Source of the DNA: an uncultured Acidobacteriota bacterium
Lineage (GTDB): Bacteria; Acidobacteriota; Terriglobia; Terriglobales; Acidobacteriaceae
Direction: 5' to 3'
DNA: 36,177 bases
Assembly (NCBI GenBank): GCA_903851035.1
Contig: CAINND010000067.1
Span: forward strand, 1-36,177
Positions 9,705-24,534 of this stretch are shown in pieces; position 1 is the stretch's first letter, and every line of letters begins with the position of its first letter. The notes below the pieces were generated by a model. That model had not been told where the DNA came from. It did no database searches and saw only the letters and a list, made by a program, of their open reading frames with translations. A program made the position numbers and the translations under genes.

Positions 9705-9822
9705 TTGCGAGGGGGTGGTATGCGGCGTGTTACCGGGATAGAATACCCCGTTTGGCCGAAGGTGAATCCATGCCTTTCGCCAACGGCTGGTGCGGCCCTT
9801 TATGCCGCCCGCGGAGTCCCTT

Positions 9823-11016
9823 ATGAGCAAAGCACTGCAATCAGAACTGCGTCTGGCCCAGCGCATGTCGCGCCTGGGTACGGAAACCGCATTCGAAGTC
9901 CTGGCCAAGGCGCGCGCCCTGGAGGCGCAGGGCCGCGACATCGTTCACCTGGAAATCGGCGAGCCCGACTTTGACACCCCGGCCAATGTCGTCGATGCCG
10001 CCGTGGACGCCCTGCACGCCGGCTTCACCCACTACGGCCCCAGCGCCGGAATGCCCGAGCTGCGCCAGGCCATAGCCAACGATGTGGCCGCCAGCCGCCA
10101 CACCACGGTCTCGCCCGATGAGGTCGTCGTCGTTCCCGGTGGCAAGCCCATCATCTTCTTCACCATGCTCGCCCTGGTGCAGGAAGGCGATGAAGTCATC
10201 TATCCCAATCCCGGCTTCCCCATCTACGAGTCGATGATTCAGTTCCTCGGCGGCACGGCCGTTCCCATCCCGCTGCATGAGGAGCGCGAGTTCCGCCTGG
10301 ACACGAAAGAGCTGGCCGCGCTCATCACTCCGCGCACCAAGCTCATCATTCTCAACTCGCCGCAGAACCCAACCGGCGGCGTCATGACCAAGCAGGATGT
10401 AGCCGAGCTGGCCGCCATCCTCGCCGACCGCGACATCATGGTGCTCAGCGATGAGATTTACTCGCGCCTCATCTTTGAAGGCGAACACCACTCGCTCTTC
10501 AGCTACGATGATCTGCGCGACCGCGTCATCCTGCTGGACGGCTTCAGCAAGACCTACGCCATGACCGGCTGGCGCATGGGCTACGGCGTCATGCGCGCCG
10601 ACCTGGCCACCCAGATCGCGCGCCTCATGACCAACTCCAACTCTTGCACCGCCAGCTTTACGCAAAAGGCCGGTGTGGAAGCCATCTGCGGCCCGCAGGC
10701 CTCGGTGGTTGCCATGTGCGAGGAGTTCAAGCGCCGCCGCGATTACTTCGCCGAGCGCATCAATAAAATCCGCGGCTTCCGCTGCGTGGTACCCAAGGGA
10801 GCGTTCTACATGTTCCCCAACATCACCGGCACCGGCTGGCAGAGCAAGCCGCTGGCCGACGCGCTGCTCAACGACGCCGGCGTGGCCGTGCTCAGCGGAA
10901 CTTCCTTTGGAGCCCACGGCGAAGGCTACCTGCGCTTCTCCATCGCCAACTCCATGGAGAACATTCGCAAAGCCCTCGACCGCGTCGAGGAGTGGGCGAA
11001 GAAAAACGTCCGGTAG
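9823..11016 (+). CDS. Class I/II PLP aminotransferase
   Basis: The protein has 397 residues, the normal length for fold-type I aminotransferases of the aspartate group. It has IHLEIGEPDFDTP-like residues (VHLEIGEPDFDTP), the NSPQNPTGG motif, the YSRL loop, and the PLP lysine Lys243 in GFSKTYAMTGWRMGY. The family transfers amino groups between amino acids and 2-oxo acids in the cytoplasm. It resembles AspC/PatA-type enzymes of broad specificity, and the exact substrate is open. The ATG at 9823 has GGAG six bases upstream. The in-frame ATGs at 9790 and 9802 lack such a site. A TAGAAT at 9739-9744 is a possible -10. The gene stands alone between a terminator and the dehydrogenase gene. Confidence 0.88.
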   Translation: MSKALQSELRLAQRMSRLGTETAFEVLAKARALEAQGRDIVHLEIGEPDFDTPANVVDAAVDALHAGFTHYGPSAGMPELRQAIANDVAASRHTTVSPDEVVVVPGGKPIIFFTMLALVQEGDEVIYPNPGFPIYESMIQFLGGTAVPIPLHEEREFRLDTKELAALITPRTKLIILNSPQNPTGGVMTKQDVAELAAILADRDIMVLSDEIYSRLIFEGEHHSLFSYDDLRDRVILLDGFSKTYAMTGWRMGYGVMRADLATQIARLMTNSNSCTASFTQKAGVEAICGPQASVVAMCEEFKRRRDYFAERINKIRGFRCVVPKGAFYMFPNITGTGWQSKPLADALLNDAGVAVLSGTSFGAHGEGYLRFSIANSMENIRKALDRVEEWAKKNVR

Positions 11017-11119
11017 TGAGGGAGTTCATTTTAGTTGCGGTGCGAGATGGTTAAGAAGAAACTAGCCTGCCTTGCACCGCATCTCTATGTTTAAAGGCGA
11101 GTAAGAATAAACGCGAGAG

Positions 11120-11125
11120 TATAAC
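11120..11125 (+). promoter_or_regulatory. -10 box of the dehydrogenase gene, leaderless
   Basis: TATAAC is followed by exactly six bases (AATCAC) and the ATG at 11132, with no Shine-Dalgarno. This is the same geometry as the GT2 promoter at 8651. A weak hairpin (GCGGTGC 11037-11043 / GCACCGC 11074-11080) lies upstream. Confidence 0.5.
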
Positions 11126-11131
11126 AATCAC

Positions 11132-12379
11132 ATGACGAAGCAAGCGAAAATCTGCCCCGAATGCGGTAAAGAATTTCTACATGGTTGGGATGGCATTGAT
11201 GCGCACTGGCGGTCTATTCATAACGATCTTATGCGATATGAGGATGCCTGGCCGTTGCTTTCATCTGGTACTTATATAAAAAGAAAAAACTTCCGCGTTT
11301 TTGCCACCTGTGACATCGGCCCCGCGCTCGACATTCTCCGCCAGCGTGGCTACCAGTTGGAGGTCTATCCCGAGCCCGCCGCGCCACCGCGCGAACTGCT
11401 GCTGGAAAAAGTTCGCAACGGCGTGGACGGCCTCATCACCAGCCTCCGCGACAAGGTGGACGAAGAGCTGTTCGCCGCCGGGGAGGGAACTCTCAAGGCC
11501 GTCGCTCAGTTCGCCGTTGGCTTTGACAACATCGATCGTGCGGCCGCCAACCGCCATCACATTCCGTTTACCAACACAGCCGAGGTTCTCACCGAGGCCA
11601 CCGCCGAATTCGCCTTCTCCATCCTGTTAGCCGTCAGCCGCAAGCTCTGGCCCAGTGAGCGCCTGGTGCGTGAAAATCGCTGGCAGTACTGGCATCCCTC
11701 GCTGCCGTTTCTCGGCGATGAGGTCACTGGCAAAACTATCGCCGTCATCGGCACCGGACGCATCGGCCTGGCCATGATCAACAAGTGCGCCGGCTTTGAT
11801 ATGGACGTGCTCTGCTACGACGCCGAATATCAGAACGAAAAGTTTATCGCCGGAATGCAGCAGGCGATGGACCTGCGCCACCAGCTCGGACTCTCGCGCC
11901 GCCACGCCCACATCCTTTACGCCGCGCTCGACGAGTGCCTCGCCCAGGCCGATTACGTCAGCCTGCACGTGCCGCTTTTGCGCGAGGGCGAATCCAAGGT
12001 GCCCACCTATCATCTGCTGAACGAGCAGCGCCTGCGCCAGATGAAACCCTCGGCCTACCTCATCAACACCGCGCGCGGCCCCGTGGTGGATGAAGCCGCC
12101 CTGGCCCGCGCCCTGCGCGAACACTGGATCGCCGGTGCTGCCCTCGACGTATTTGAGAAGGAACCGCTGCCCGCCGACAGTCCCTTGCGCGATCCTGCCA
12201 TCGAGGACCGTTGCCGCCTCTACCATCACTTCAGCAGTGGAGGTGCGGCCACCCGCCTCTCACCCGATCCCAACATCGGCATGGCGGGCCGCTGCGTGCA
12301 GGGCCTCATCGACATGCTGGAAGGCCACGACCACGCGAAGATGCCGTACCTTGTAAACCGCGAGGCCTTCCAGAAATAG
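11132..12379 (+). CDS. D-isomer 2-hydroxyacid dehydrogenase with N-terminal C2H2-like zinc finger
   Basis: The protein has 415 residues in one uninterrupted frame. Residues about 50-415 are a D-2-hydroxyacid dehydrogenase: NAD site GTGRIG, catalytic Arg in NTARGPVVDE, the Glu region VFEKEPLP, and a His in the YHHFSSGG segment that replaces the usual PHxxS. A helical insertion (QQAMDLRHQLGLSRRHAH) interrupts the NAD domain. Residues 1-47 are unrelated: Cys8, Cys11, His25 and His30 form a C-x2-C-x13-H-x4-H finger, followed by MRYEDAWPLLSSGTY. This part and its 5' flank are visibly more AT-rich than the dehydrogenase part. No start codon lies near the expected dehydrogenase N-terminus (KNFRVFATCD), so translation must begin within or before the finger. 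The substrate (lactate, glyoxylate or another) is unknown. Confidence 0.87.
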   Translation: MTKQAKICPECGKEFLHGWDGIDAHWRSIHNDLMRYEDAWPLLSSGTYIKRKNFRVFATCDIGPALDILRQRGYQLEVYPEPAAPPRELLLEKVRNGVDGLITSLRDKVDEELFAAGEGTLKAVAQFAVGFDNIDRAAANRHHIPFTNTAEVLTEATAEFAFSILLAVSRKLWPSERLVRENRWQYWHPSLPFLGDEVTGKTIAVIGTGRIGLAMINKCAGFDMDVLCYDAEYQNEKFIAGMQQAMDLRHQLGLSRRHAHILYAALDECLAQADYVSLHVPLLREGESKVPTYHLLNEQRLRQMKPSAYLINTARGPVVDEAALARALREHWIAGAALDVFEKEPLPADSPLRDPAIEDRCRLYHHFSSGGAATRLSPDPNIGMAGRCVQGLIDMLEGHDHAKMPYLVNREAFQK

Positions 12380-21225: not shown

Positions 21226-21243
21226 CCAACCCCTCCCCGGGTA

Positions 21244-21283
21244 GCAGTAGGAAAGGGCGGCCTCGGCCGTCCTTTTCTGCTGC
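21244..21283 (+). terminator. Terminator after the TonB-dependent receptor gene
   Basis: A long imperfect hairpin has core AAAGGGCGGCC (21252-21262) and GGCCGTCCTTTT (21265-21276), with outer GCAG pairing. The T-run lies inside the descending arm. Confidence 0.65.
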
Positions 21284-21313
21284 GCGGTGGTTTATGCTGG
21301 TGCGCATGGGAAT

Positions 21314-21368
21314 AGGCCAATGAGATGGGCCAATGAAACTGGGTCAATGAGACTGGGTCAATGAGAGA
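21314..21368 (+). repeat. 14-bp tandem repeats over a start codon
   Basis: Four units are seen: AGGCCAATGAGAT (21314-21326, 13 bp), GGGCCAATGAAACT (21327-21340), GGGTCAATGAGACT (21341-21354) and GGGTCAATGAGAGA (21355-21368). Every unit carries CAATGA. The last one holds the start codon of the next gene at 21361. Confidence 0.85.
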
Positions 21369-21663
21369 CGAAGCGAAGAAGTTTTGGTTGCGGGGCGTGG
21401 CCATTGTGCTGGGCGCGGCGCTGCTGCTTTACGTTATGGACAGCGCGGCCTTCCAACTGCGCCGCGCGCGCGGCGGCGGCTTGCAAGCGGTGGCGGTGGA
21501 TGAGTTCCTGAGTACACCACTGAAGGGCAGCGCGACGGAGTACGACTATCTGGGAGCAACCACGCGCAACTGTGCACAGGCGCTGTTTCCGCAGTATGCG
21601 AATGGCACGTGGAACCCTCCGTGCTGGTACCTGACCAAGCACACGGATCAGTGGAAGAAGTAG
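21361..21663 (+). CDS. Small single-pass membrane protein, unknown
   Basis: The protein has 100 residues. One N-terminal membrane helix (about 10-26, LRGVAIVLGAALLLYV) is followed by an Arg-rich stretch and a polar domain of about 65 residues with two cysteines (RNCAQAL, PPCWYL) that could form a disulfide outside the cytoplasm. I do not recognise the family. The C-terminal half (DEFLSTPLKGSATEYDYLG, WNPPCWYL) looks like a conserved small domain rather than random sequence. No Shine-Dalgarno precedes the ATG; instead it lies in the last of four 14-bp repeats. The terminator of the upstream receptor gene separates it from that operon. Confidence 0.65.
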   Translation: MRDEAKKFWLRGVAIVLGAALLLYVMDSAAFQLRRARGGGLQAVAVDEFLSTPLKGSATEYDYLGATTRNCAQALFPQYANGTWNPPCWYLTKHTDQWKK

Positions 21664-21666
21664 GGG

Positions 21667-21731
21667 GCAGGTTTCGGAGGAAACAGGAGCAAGGTGTCGG
21701 AGGTTTCGAAGGTTTCAAAGTTTCAGAGGTT
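21667..21731 (+). repeat. GGTTTC-type simple repeat, left arm of island
   Basis: Low-complexity sequence begins three bases after the stop with GGCAGGTTTC (21667-21676) and continues as GGTTTCGAAGGTTTCAAAG (21702-21720). The same family appears inverted at 22869-22918 beyond the island. Confidence 0.7.
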
Positions 21732-21764
21732 GAGAGCAAAGGCAAAAGCAAGAGCAATTGCCCT

Positions 21765-22517
21765 CTAGCAACAAAGGTTAGGATGGGGCGCCCGGCTGTT
21801 GAACCTCACATACTCATATAGTCATATCCAATCCGCATGACAATTAAATGAGGGTCACATACATTGAGAGGAATGCCATTCTTTGTAAATTTGATTTCCA
21901 AAGTATATGTTTTCTTCGATTGCCCCTTAAAATAAGCTACATACTTAAGTATGTAATCATTGAGAAAGATAGATGTACTTTTAGTTAGCAGCTTATCTCC
22001 ATGTGCGACTATCTCATCATCTTCTCCTCGAACAGCCCATTCTGCCTGCAGGAGAGGTTCTCCTGCACAGCGGTAAGTATGGTCACGAGGATAGTCAATG
22101 GCAATGCCAAGTTTGCAACACAATTCGTCGAACGATATCCGCTTGGCCACTTGAACAATTACAGCATACTCACCTTTTTTCTTGAGCTGGAAGGTGGCCG
22201 TATAAGTGCTACCGGCTGCAAGAGATATAGGAATATCCATCTCCGGTTTGCGCCATGTATGGAATTCACGCTGCGTTCTTCCAGATAATGGTGTAAGCAT
22301 CATCGCGATGATTACAAGCAAACGGACAACCATGTGACAATGATGGCTAATGACTGCCGCAGTAGTTATTTGTTCTTTGGTTTCTCTCATATGCGACCCC
22401 TGAATCGTGTAATTGTATTCCAATTACCCAGGCAGGTGGCCCAGAGTCGGGTGACCTAGGCAAATCTTCCCAGCAGTAACAACCCTGAGGGTGCCCCATT
22501 CTAGCCGTTGTTGCTAG
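21765..22517. mobile_element. Putative 753-bp inverted-repeat cassette with one cargo gene
   Basis: A 29-base sequence at 21765-21793 (beginning CTAGCAACAAAGG, ending GGGGCGCCC) is repeated in inverted orientation at 22489-22517 with 25 of 29 positions identical. Between the two copies lies one gene (21806-22390, minus strand) that is clearly more AT-rich than the rest of the window. No transposase is present and no convincing target duplication was found, so if mobile it would be non-autonomous. The same GAATGGGGCACCC core occurs again at 22837-22849, so the arms could instead be copies of a common dispersed repeat. Confidence 0.45.
21806..22390 (-). CDS. Exported protein of unknown function, AT-rich, probably acquired
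   Basis: The protein has 194 residues from the ATG at 22390, which has AGGGG six bases upstream; a TTG at 22423 would add 11 residues. A hydrophobic segment (about 20-38, MVVRLLVIIAMMLTPLSG) looks like a signal peptide or anchor. The rest reads as alternating beta-strands (STYTATFQLKKKGEYAVIVQ, KKTYTLEIKFTKNG, NVCDPHLIVMRIGYD), consistent with a beta-sandwich, and holds four cysteines. No family is recognised. A TACAAT (22412-22417, minus strand) could be its -10. Base composition differs strongly from the neighbours and the gene sits between inverted repeats, which suggests transfer. Confidence 0.6.
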   Translation of the reverse strand: MRETKEQITTAAVISHHCHMVVRLLVIIAMMLTPLSGRTQREFHTWRKPEMDIPISLAAGSTYTATFQLKKKGEYAVIVQVAKRISFDELCCKLGIAIDYPRDHTYRCAGEPLLQAEWAVRGEDDEIVAHGDKLLTKSTSIFLNDYILKYVAYFKGQSKKTYTLEIKFTKNGIPLNVCDPHLIVMRIGYDYMSM

Positions 22518-22556
22518 GGTGTGGTAGTTGGTCTTGATCCTGTTCTTGTTTTTAAG

Positions 22557-22714
22557 TGTCATCCTGAGCGAAGCGGGCGCGTCAGCGCCTGCGCAGTCGA
22601 AGGACCCCTATCCATTCTGTTTCGCAGCATCCACGCAAGTTCACCTACACGGGCACGGGGCTCACTCTCATAGTAGGGTTCCTTCGACTCCGCTGCGCTC
22701 CGCTCAGGATGACA
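22557..22714. repeat. Palindromic CATCCTGAGCG element, REPIN-like
   Basis: A 158-bp element has perfect 14-bp inverted ends (TGTCATCCTGAGCG 22557-22570 / CGCTCAGGATGACA 22701-22714) and an internal perfect pair GTCGAAGGA (22596-22604) / TCCTTCGAC (22680-22688). Such paired motifs are common as dispersed intergenic repeats in acidobacteria and several other phyla. Confidence 0.75.
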
Positions 22715-22811
22715 GCGTGAATCAAAATCAAAATCAAAAGCCCCACCCTCCGCCAACAGAAGGCGGAAGGGTAGGGCACCCTCAGGGTGATGATTGAATG
22801 CAGAATAACTA

Positions 22812-22844
22812 CCCCACTCAAGCCAAAAGATGGCTTGAATGGGG
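22812..22844. repeat. Hairpin repeat CCCCACTCAAGCCA
   Basis: A 14-bp stem with one mismatch (CCCCACTCAAGCCA 22812-22825 / TGGCTTGAATGGGG 22831-22844) and a 5-base loop is followed by CACCC. It has no T-run and is more likely a dispersed repeat than a terminator. Confidence 0.6.
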
Positions 22845-22868
22845 CACCCGTCGTCAAACGGGATACGC

Positions 22869-22918
22869 AACCTCCGAAACTTTCGAAACCTTGAAACCTT
22901 GAAACTTTGAAACCTGCC
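22869..22918 (-). repeat. GGTTTC-type simple repeat, right arm of island
   Basis: Read on the minus strand, GGCAGGTTTC follows the stop of the outer-membrane factor gene directly. It continues as GTTTCAAGGTTTCAAGG and ends in TTCGGAGG, mirroring the left arm at 21667-21731. Confidence 0.7.
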
Positions 22919-24534
22919 TACGGCTTCGCTGTATCGGCCACCGGCGCGCTCGGTGTCGCGCTGTCTGCGGGCTTCGCGTCTGCCGCGGGCTTCTGCGTGA
23001 CCTGCTTGTCGGTTGGTAGCTGAGTACGCTGCCAGCCTCCGCCGAGGGCCTGAATGAGTTGCACGCTGGCCGTGGCGCGCTGCACCTCGATCTGCGCCAT
23101 TGTCTCCTGTGCACTCAACAGCGTGTTCTGCTCGGTGACGACGTTGATGTAGGGATCGAGTCCCTCCTGGTAGCGGATCAGTTCGAGGTCGAGGGCGCGG
23201 CGCGAGGCCTCGACGGCCCTCTGCTGTTGCTGCACCTGCTCGCTGAGGATGCGCAGAGTGGAGAGCGCGTCTTCCACCTGCTGGAATGCCGTGAGCACCG
23301 TCTGGCGGTAAGCGGCGAGGTCGGCGCGGTAGGTGGCTTCGTACTGCTGCACCTGGGCGCGACGCAGTCCGGCGTCAAAGACCGTTTCACTGGCCGAGGG
23401 GCCGATGCTCCACACGCGGCTGGGCCATTCCAGCAGATGCTTCCATGTGGAGCTGTTGAGGCCTCCGGTGGCCGTGAGCGACAGCGACGGATAGTAGGCG
23501 GCCTTGCCGATGCCGATCTGCGCGTTGGCGGCGGCCAATGTGCGCTCGGCGGCGGCTACGTCCGGGCGGCGCTCCAGCAACTGCGAGGGCAGGCCGACGG
23601 GAATGGCAGGCGGCGTGATGAGCAACGGGCGCTCGGGGAGCGAGAACTCCGCCGCCGGCTTGCCGATGAGCGTGGCGATGGCGTGCTCGTACTGCGAGCG
23701 CGCGACGCCGAGATTGATGAGCGTGGATTGTGCGGTTTCCACCGTGGCCTGGGCCTGGACGACGGTGAGTTCGGCGCCGATGCCGGTTTCGTACTGCGCG
23801 CGGTTGTATTCCAGCGACTTCTGGTCGGCCTGCACGGCCTCGGTCAGTATCTGGCGGAGAGCGTCCTGCCCACGCAACTCGAAATAGTACTGGGCGAGGC
23901 TGGCCTGGGCGGAGAGGCGCGCATTGACCAGCGTAGCGGCACTGACCTGCGCGTTGGCCTGTGACTGACGCACGCTGTTGCGCACCTTGCCCCAGAGATC
24001 GGGCTCCCAACTGATGCCGCTGGTGAGATCGAGCGCGGTGTAAGTGGCTCCGCTGGAGCCAGCAGTGTTGCTGGAGCTGCGGTTGCGCGAGCCTCCGGCA
24101 CCGATGGTGGCCGTGGGGAAGAAGGCGGTGCGGGCCTGGCGCACGGTGGCGCGGGCGGCCATGAAGTTCTCGTACGCCTGCTGGATGTTCTGGTTGTTGA
24201 TGTCGAGCTGCGCTTCCAGGGCGTTCAGCTCGGGCTCGTTGTAGATCTCCCACCAGTTGCCGCGCAGGGTGGCATCACTGGGCGCGGCCACCTGCCACTG
24301 GCCCAGGCCGTTGAGGGTGGGATCGGGCTGCCCGGCGGCGGGCGAGGGGATGGTGGGGGCGGCCGTGGCCTCTTTGAACTCCGGCGGAGCCACGGGCGCG
24401 GGCGCGTGATATTTGGGCCCAACGGTGCAGGAGGCCAGCAGAAGAGCGGCGAGCACGGGCAGGGCAGCCATGGATAGAGTCAGGTGCGAGAGCCTGGCAT
24501 TCGGAATTCGGCGCATTGAAAGTTTCATGATCAT
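22918..24534 (-). CDS. RND efflux outer-membrane factor lipoprotein (NodT/OprM family)
   Basis: The protein has 538 residues. The signal peptide ends in a lipobox LLAS-Cys (about residue 36), giving a lipoprotein. CTVGPKYHAP, the typical first residues of NodT/OprM mature proteins, follow. Two OEP repeats with long helices (ELNALEAQLDINNQNIQQAYENF and the later FQQVEDALSTLRILSEQVQQQQ regions) form the trimeric channel. The C-terminus has a Pro/Ala/Lys-rich tail of about 35 residues, perhaps unstructured. The ATG at 24534 has GGGAG eight bases upstream. The gene is last in the efflux operon, 15 bases after the pump gene, and would complete the tripartite pump from inner membrane to outside. 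Confidence 0.92.
   Translation of the reverse strand: MIMKLSMRRIPNARLSHLTLSMAALPVLAALLLASCTVGPKYHAPAPVAPPEFKEATAAPTIPSPAAGQPDPTLNGLGQWQVAAPSDATLRGNWWEIYNEPELNALEAQLDINNQNIQQAYENFMAARATVRQARTAFFPTATIGAGGSRNRSSSNTAGSSGATYTALDLTSGISWEPDLWGKVRNSVRQSQANAQVSAATLVNARLSAQASLAQYYFELRGQDALRQILTEAVQADQKSLEYNRAQYETGIGAELTVVQAQATVETAQSTLINLGVARSQYEHAIATLIGKPAAEFSLPERPLLITPPAIPVGLPSQLLERRPDVAAAERTLAAANAQIGIGKAAYYPSLSLTATGGLNSSTWKHLLEWPSRVWSIGPSASETVFDAGLRRAQVQQYEATYRADLAAYRQTVLTAFQQVEDALSTLRILSEQVQQQQRAVEASRRALDLELIRYQEGLDPYINVVTEQNTLLSAQETMAQIEVQRATASVQLIQALGGGWQRTQLPTDKQVTQKPAADAKPADSATPSAPVADTAKP

Follow-up and report, generated by a model that had tools for sequence, protein, structure and literature searches.

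The window, by which we mean the whole stretch of 36,177 nucleotides that was analyzed from an uncultured member of the Acidobacteriaceae, contains a single 415-codon frame (11132-12379, + strand) that begins with ATG, is free of stops throughout when its open reading frame is followed, and joins a small zinc-finger module to a D-2-hydroxyacid dehydrogenase (Table 1). Translation of this frame recovered the finger residues C8, C11, H25, and H30, the YEDAWPLLSSGTY segment, and the in-frame connection to a 2-hydroxyacid dehydrogenase, all of which had been claimed in an earlier reading of the same DNA (hereafter the original prediction). The FRVFATCD stretch of the dehydrogenase part begins at residue 54. 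The joint contains AAAAAGAAAAAA and A runs of 5 and 6, and an ATA codon at 11276 (residue 49) occupies the aligned position of most orthologue starts. It had also been claimed that the joint has no start codon: this holds for the joint itself, as ATG, GTG, and TTG are absent from codons 43-53, but an in-frame ATG (codon 34) and an in-frame TTG (codon 42) lie close upstream. Its sequence marks the frame as a fusion of two genes, known from a single assembly.

Table 1. Features of the fused gene and its upstream neighborhood (positions in the window; G439, a same-family genome; G001, a same-genus genome).
Feature	Position	Strand	Remarks
Class I/II aminotransferase, upstream neighbor	9790-11016	+	
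5' flank, AT-rich, between aminotransferase and fused gene	11017-11131	+	No homologue found
Zinc-finger module, residues 1-48	11132-11275	+	C8/C11/H25/H30 finger plus predicted second helix (36-45)
Possible internal start, in-frame TTG codon 42	11255-11257	+	GAGGA 10 nt upstream
Joint	11269-11290	+	Matches the small gene of G439 in DNA as far as 11268 and the G001 dehydrogenase from 11285 on
D-2-hydroxyacid dehydrogenase, glyoxylate-reductase-like, residues 54-415	11291-12376	+	Stop at 12377-12379

Two Pfam dehydrogenase domains (residues 65-228 and 163-354) scored well over their cut-offs (PF00389: 72 bits vs 24.6; PF02826: 159.8 bits vs 25.1), and R315, E344, and H366, which we take to be the catalytic Arg-Glu-His of the D-2-hydroxyacid dehydrogenase family, are invariant in 27/27 rows of our alignment A3. 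The best NCBIfam match, glyoxylate reductase NF009714, reached 256.4 bits against a cut-off of 455, too little for a substrate to be assigned; among solved structures, archaeal glyoxylate reductases come closest. Residues 1-53 reached no Pfam or NCBIfam cut-off, and their PHROG matches were weak (best E 0.047). A defence role of the fusion was considered and rejected, as the fusion protein (P0001) has no PADLOC match.

The finger has the spacing CxxC-x13-H-x4-H and belongs to a module of the pattern CPEC..F..GWDGIDAHW..H....YE.AW, whose two cysteines and two histidines are invariant in 12/12 rows of both of our module alignments (A4 and A5; these leave out two of the three copies from the genome G1174, in which tyrosine replaces the first histidine). 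It looks C2H2-like, yet we do not assign it to a Pfam family: the window finger scored 14.7 bits against zf-C2H2_4 (cut-off 27) and fell below every Pfam cut-off, and 10/12 module members matched zf-C2H2_4 at E <=1, the best at 0.0014. An AlphaFold2 model of the finger from 12 rows (mean pLDDT 79.9) predicted two short strands and helices at 19-30 and 36-45, in the strand-strand-helix order. A Foldseek search with this model gave no significant match (best E 2.1); among the matches listed, 17/26 titles name zinc fingers, none of them significant. In a full-length model, made from an alignment that held no finger homologues, 250/415 residues had a pLDDT of at least 90, with a mean of about 46-59 in the finger and values below 50 at residues 33-49. 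Our search of the open-access literature found no description of the finger module or of the fusion, which is no proof of absence, and nothing on "mREase_II" or the string GIDAHW.

We then compared the dehydrogenase with its counterparts in relatives. Among 61 genomes searched, the window's own included, the dehydrogenase was found at E <=1e-60 in 28 and was absent from 33; exclusion of a contig-end fragment that has no N-terminus (L029) from the 27 relatives left 26 orthologues. None of these carries the finger on the dehydrogenase, and the Cys-Cys-His-His pattern was found in none of 27 unfused loci (the 26 and that of G439) in any forward frame over about 500 bp upstream. Comparison with relatives had been proposed along with the original prediction, and its outcome (26/26 orthologues and G439 finger-free) supports a fusion. 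When the nearest ATG was taken as the start, or GTG/TTG where there was no ATG, 20 of the 26 orthologues began at aligned positions 48-50 and the remaining six at 39, 40, 47, 47, 52, and 54. An aminotransferase lies upstream of the dehydrogenase in 15/26 orthologue loci (about 1.5 kb upstream covered, less in L011), suggesting that these two neighbors share a pathway. At E <=1e-30 the dehydrogenase was present in 2/4 genomes of the genus, fused in the window's and unfused in that of G001, and no other fused dehydrogenase was found among the genomes searched.

Alignment of G001 with the window revealed 12 blocks in one order (window 3608-24439). One block, covering the aminotransferase, extends to 11006, and the next, from 11285 on, covers the dehydrogenase; the unaligned 11007-11284 corresponds to the last aminotransferase bases, the flank, and the finger, and in its place G001 carries 233 bp in which no similarity to the window was detectable. 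Because this is 1 of 11 stretches that do not align with G001, the ten others being up to 1.8 kb long, the gap by itself is no proof of insertion. The orthology of both neighbors in G001 argues against a chimeric contig. A sequencing or assembly error could hide a stop or a frame change in the A-rich joint, in which case the locus would hold two genes: an indel error at the joint, taken from an assembly without its reads, is possible because of the runs of 5 and 6 A, the AAAAAGAAAAAA sequence is known from a single assembly, and the free-standing finger gene of G439 has its stop seven codons past the tyrosine aligned with Y48. Against such an artefact, which we consider improbable, stand the quality of the source genome (98.93% complete, 2.6% contaminated), the alignment of the neighbors on both sides with G001, and the lack of the three start codons from codons 43-53. 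The join is very probably real in the organism.

Because homologues of the finger were present in a plasmid record (tblastn E 3e-13) and in a same-family genome (nucleotide E 3.9e-16), the finger is more than a chance resemblance. A search of 398 family genomes with a 12-row profile found the module in five, namely the window's own, G439, G1078, G455, and G474. Two of these contain an intact free-standing finger frame, of 54 residues from ATG or 104 from an upstream GTG in G439, and of 91 residues in G1078, where 27/48 residues are identical to the window finger; free-standing small homologues, named along with the original prediction as support for a fusion, thus exist. The G439 gene is 74% identical in DNA to the window over 127 bp (11142-11268), in the coding part only, and the G439 dehydrogenase is unfused, lies on another contig, and begins MSKKFRVFATCD. 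Comparison of the window finger with the G439 gene revealed 14/42 codons that differ silently and 10 that change the residue, with 24/36 base differences in third positions (raw codon counts are given instead of dN/dS, as silent sites were not estimable in most pairs). G474 has a finger gene fragment with stops, and the G455 copy, which by its coordinates lies on the contig of L038 (JASHPJ010000139.1, an Acidobacteriaceae record), is interrupted by an insert with inverted-repeat ends. We also observed that this insert in a free-standing finger gene (L038:1053-1183) is MITE-like, with ends that form a perfect inverted repeat over 15 nt (84% over 25 nt), and that, by eye, the intact relative in G1078 lies behind apparently the same upstream gene as in L038.

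The module is sparse in wider samples as well, with the window's own genome included in each count: it was found in 2/297 phylum genomes (single-sequence query), 5/399 class genomes, and 6/200 order genomes, two of the latter (L047 and L048) being spurious and rejected as finger copies, as their matches lie in frames without a finger. Among 398 genomes of the phylum to which a Methyloprofundus record belongs, three had the module (the genome of that record being one of them), and 1/72,556 plasmid records matched. These genome samples overlap and cover only part of the known species. Two diverged finger copies lie within one 174-residue frame in G124 (L030, G124:C35), and G1174 has three short finger frames of 68, 100, and 112 residues (L071, L073, and L074). 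Six records of about 109 residues, of which five are titled Methylococcales or like and one "bacterium", carry the module at their C-terminal end or close to it, as do frames of G607, G823, G482, G1243, G1091, and G1225 that are 85-338 residues long. Four proteins of 213-338 residues [L069:1039-1677 (+); L070:1486-2256 (-); L072:335-1348 (+); L054:314-1090 (+)], for which no partner domain was named, have the finger at their end and suggest a promiscuous add-on module. Scans against Pfam, PADLOC, and NCBIfam gave no named partner domain for the proteins of G482, G1243, G1091, and G1225, nor did a Pfam scan for that of G823. The G482 and G1225 proteins (L054 and L072) match one another (73 bits, 25% of 255), with the finger contributing much of the match, and may be related. 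On Paracoccus aestuarii plasmid p60130, a 223-residue protein annotated as hypothetical (L042:3467-4138) has the finger at its C-terminus and matches DUF6998 (E 2.2e-8) and the PADLOC model for a type II methyl-directed restriction enzyme (E 7.5e-33), a predicted function. Among the frames read, the module stands in front of an enzyme in the window only. The finger is a member of a sparse bacterial module that elsewhere occurs alone or near the C-terminus of other proteins.

Base composition also sets the finger apart. As originally predicted, the finger and its 115-bp 5' flank are more AT-rich than the dehydrogenase (GC 0.465 and 0.435 vs 0.634; upstream aminotransferase, 0.638), and third-position GC was 0.44 in the finger vs 0.80 in the dehydrogenase and 0.85 in the aminotransferase. 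Within 11 chosen long frames, all 1071 windows of 144 bp exceeded the finger in GC (lowest 0.472); counted across all 36 kb, 70/3003 such windows were as low, 16 of which start in 10993-11173 and the others mainly in AT-rich stretches at 16.6-16.9 and 21.7-22.3 kb. As a control, the 115 bp before the dehydrogenase gene in 27 unfused relatives had a mean GC of 0.564 vs 0.600 in the gene body, and the largest flank-to-body drop among them was 0.11, vs 0.20 at the fused gene. Elsewhere in the window, the DNA is AT-rich over a long distance at 21709-22452, where most 144-bp windows have a GC of 0.465 or less; G001 does not share this stretch (window 21229-23073 unaligned).

The sparse distribution and the low GC fit an acquired gene, and we infer that the finger gene is foreign. 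In the original prediction this was a capture of a small foreign gene together with its promoter. Capture of the promoter along with the gene is not supported by our results: no sigma-70-like site was found in 10900-11400 (0 found, 0.2 expected in shuffles), the G439 match is confined to coding sequence, and the flank, searched within a 281-base query against 150 family genomes at E <=0.001, returned nothing beyond the G439 coding match. Our searches found no donor of the finger gene. Transposon ends were rejected, since only short imperfect repeats are present: of the three inverted pairs that 10950-11420 contains, the longest (17 nt at 76%) falls within the end of the aminotransferase and the second longest (14 nt at 86%) within the flank. 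Also rejected were tRNA-linked integration, as a tRNA is absent from L066 and from the window, and a phage origin, as 0/50,697 phage records match the window finger or the G1078 protein. The single IMG/VR match (L039) covers residues 6-25 only.

Which start codon is used bears on the product. The ribosome-site match of the first ATG is weak (-3.4 kcal/mol) compared with that of TTG codon 42 (-5.6 kcal/mol), which ranks below the best tenth but within the best quarter of 300 random positions (mean -2.8, sd 2.1, tenth percentile -5.9, twenty-fifth percentile -3.7 kcal/mol), and a start at codon 42 would leave 12 residues before FRVF, where 20/26 orthologues have 4-6. The frames could thus be joined in the DNA while the dehydrogenase is made mostly from an internal start (TTG 42 or ATG 34), the fused form perhaps being minor. 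We regard this as a somewhat unlikely course: TTG is generally a weaker start codon than ATG, and since the GAGG stretch codes for conserved finger residues and has a counterpart in the unfused G439 gene, it is a by-product of the finger coding sequence and no new adaptation. A fused and a near-normal product are both possible, with TTG codon 42 leaving room for an unfused one, and the product is probably mainly fused.

The joined frame, the unfused relatives, the finger-free locus of G001, and the free-standing homologues are what we observe; the order of events, the acquisition, the illegitimate joining, and a single zinc-bound chain are what we infer from them. We propose, with a probability of roughly 0.7, that in this lineage a free-standing small gene for the finger arrived between the genes of the aminotransferase and the dehydrogenase. 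Illegitimate joining within the A-rich 11269-11290 would then have deleted the stop and the final codons of the small gene and placed the finger in frame with the dehydrogenase, at the start codon of the latter or close by, with ATA codon 49 as a possible remnant of a lost ATG. In this reading, translation runs mainly from ATG 11132 and yields a single chain of 415 residues. The chain would carry a zinc-bound finger on a flexible linker ahead of an otherwise normal dehydrogenase; the product is most likely a predicted active dehydrogenase with a tethered finger, the enzyme working as before and the finger serving as a passenger or weak tether.

A larger role, in which the finger would convert the dehydrogenase into a CtBP-like regulator that senses NADH or is tethered to nucleic acid, appears very unlikely. 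The PDB sequence matches do include CtBP1 (E ~6e-24), the finger model is strand-strand-helix, zinc fingers are named in 17/26 listed Foldseek titles (none significant), and the module also sits on the predicted restriction enzyme of Paracoccus. However, CtBP is far from the closest among the best 60 of 160 matched PDB sequences, a single zinc finger rarely binds DNA with specificity, and the fusion is known from a single genome. Equally improbable is any new regulatory role of the fusion, including a bacterial counterpart of CtBP in which a promiscuous finger module would have made the dehydrogenase an NAD(H)-sensing regulator tethered to DNA or RNA. The locus is a natural gene fusion with both unfused parts visible in relatives, so that its history and effect are testable. 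It is also a pointer to a sparse C2H2-like module whose window copy lies under all Pfam and NCBIfam cut-offs and which recurs on several bacterial proteins, mostly near the C-terminus. Provided that the fused chain is stable and that its finger has a binding partner, this would be an unusual way to place a metabolic enzyme in the cell.

Among known systems, the Ros/MucR regulators also have a small bacterial Cys2His2 finger; the Ros finger, which contains three histidines, has nine residues between Cys and His (PMC9779718), unlike the window finger with its spacer of 13, and on this ground we rejected a Ros/MucR identity. Likewise, a Ros/MucR model was absent from the Pfam matches at E <=1. 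The finger resembles Pfam zf-C2H2_4 and zf-C2H2 in its Cys and His spacing and predicted strand-strand-helix fold, but differs from Pfam C2H2 fingers in the conserved GWDGIDAHW and in the second helix with YExAW. On the enzyme side, the closest likeness is to Pyrococcus horikoshii PH0597 (2dbq), the first Foldseek match (38% identity), with which fusion residues 56-347 align (E 3.2e-58); unlike 2dbq, the fusion protein has 53 added N-terminal residues and about 18 extra residues within 237-256, the latter stretch being present in its orthologues too. The eukaryotic corepressor CtBP, which we cite as an analogy only, belongs to the same dehydrogenase superfamily, but CtBP is recruited by zinc-finger factors that are separate proteins.
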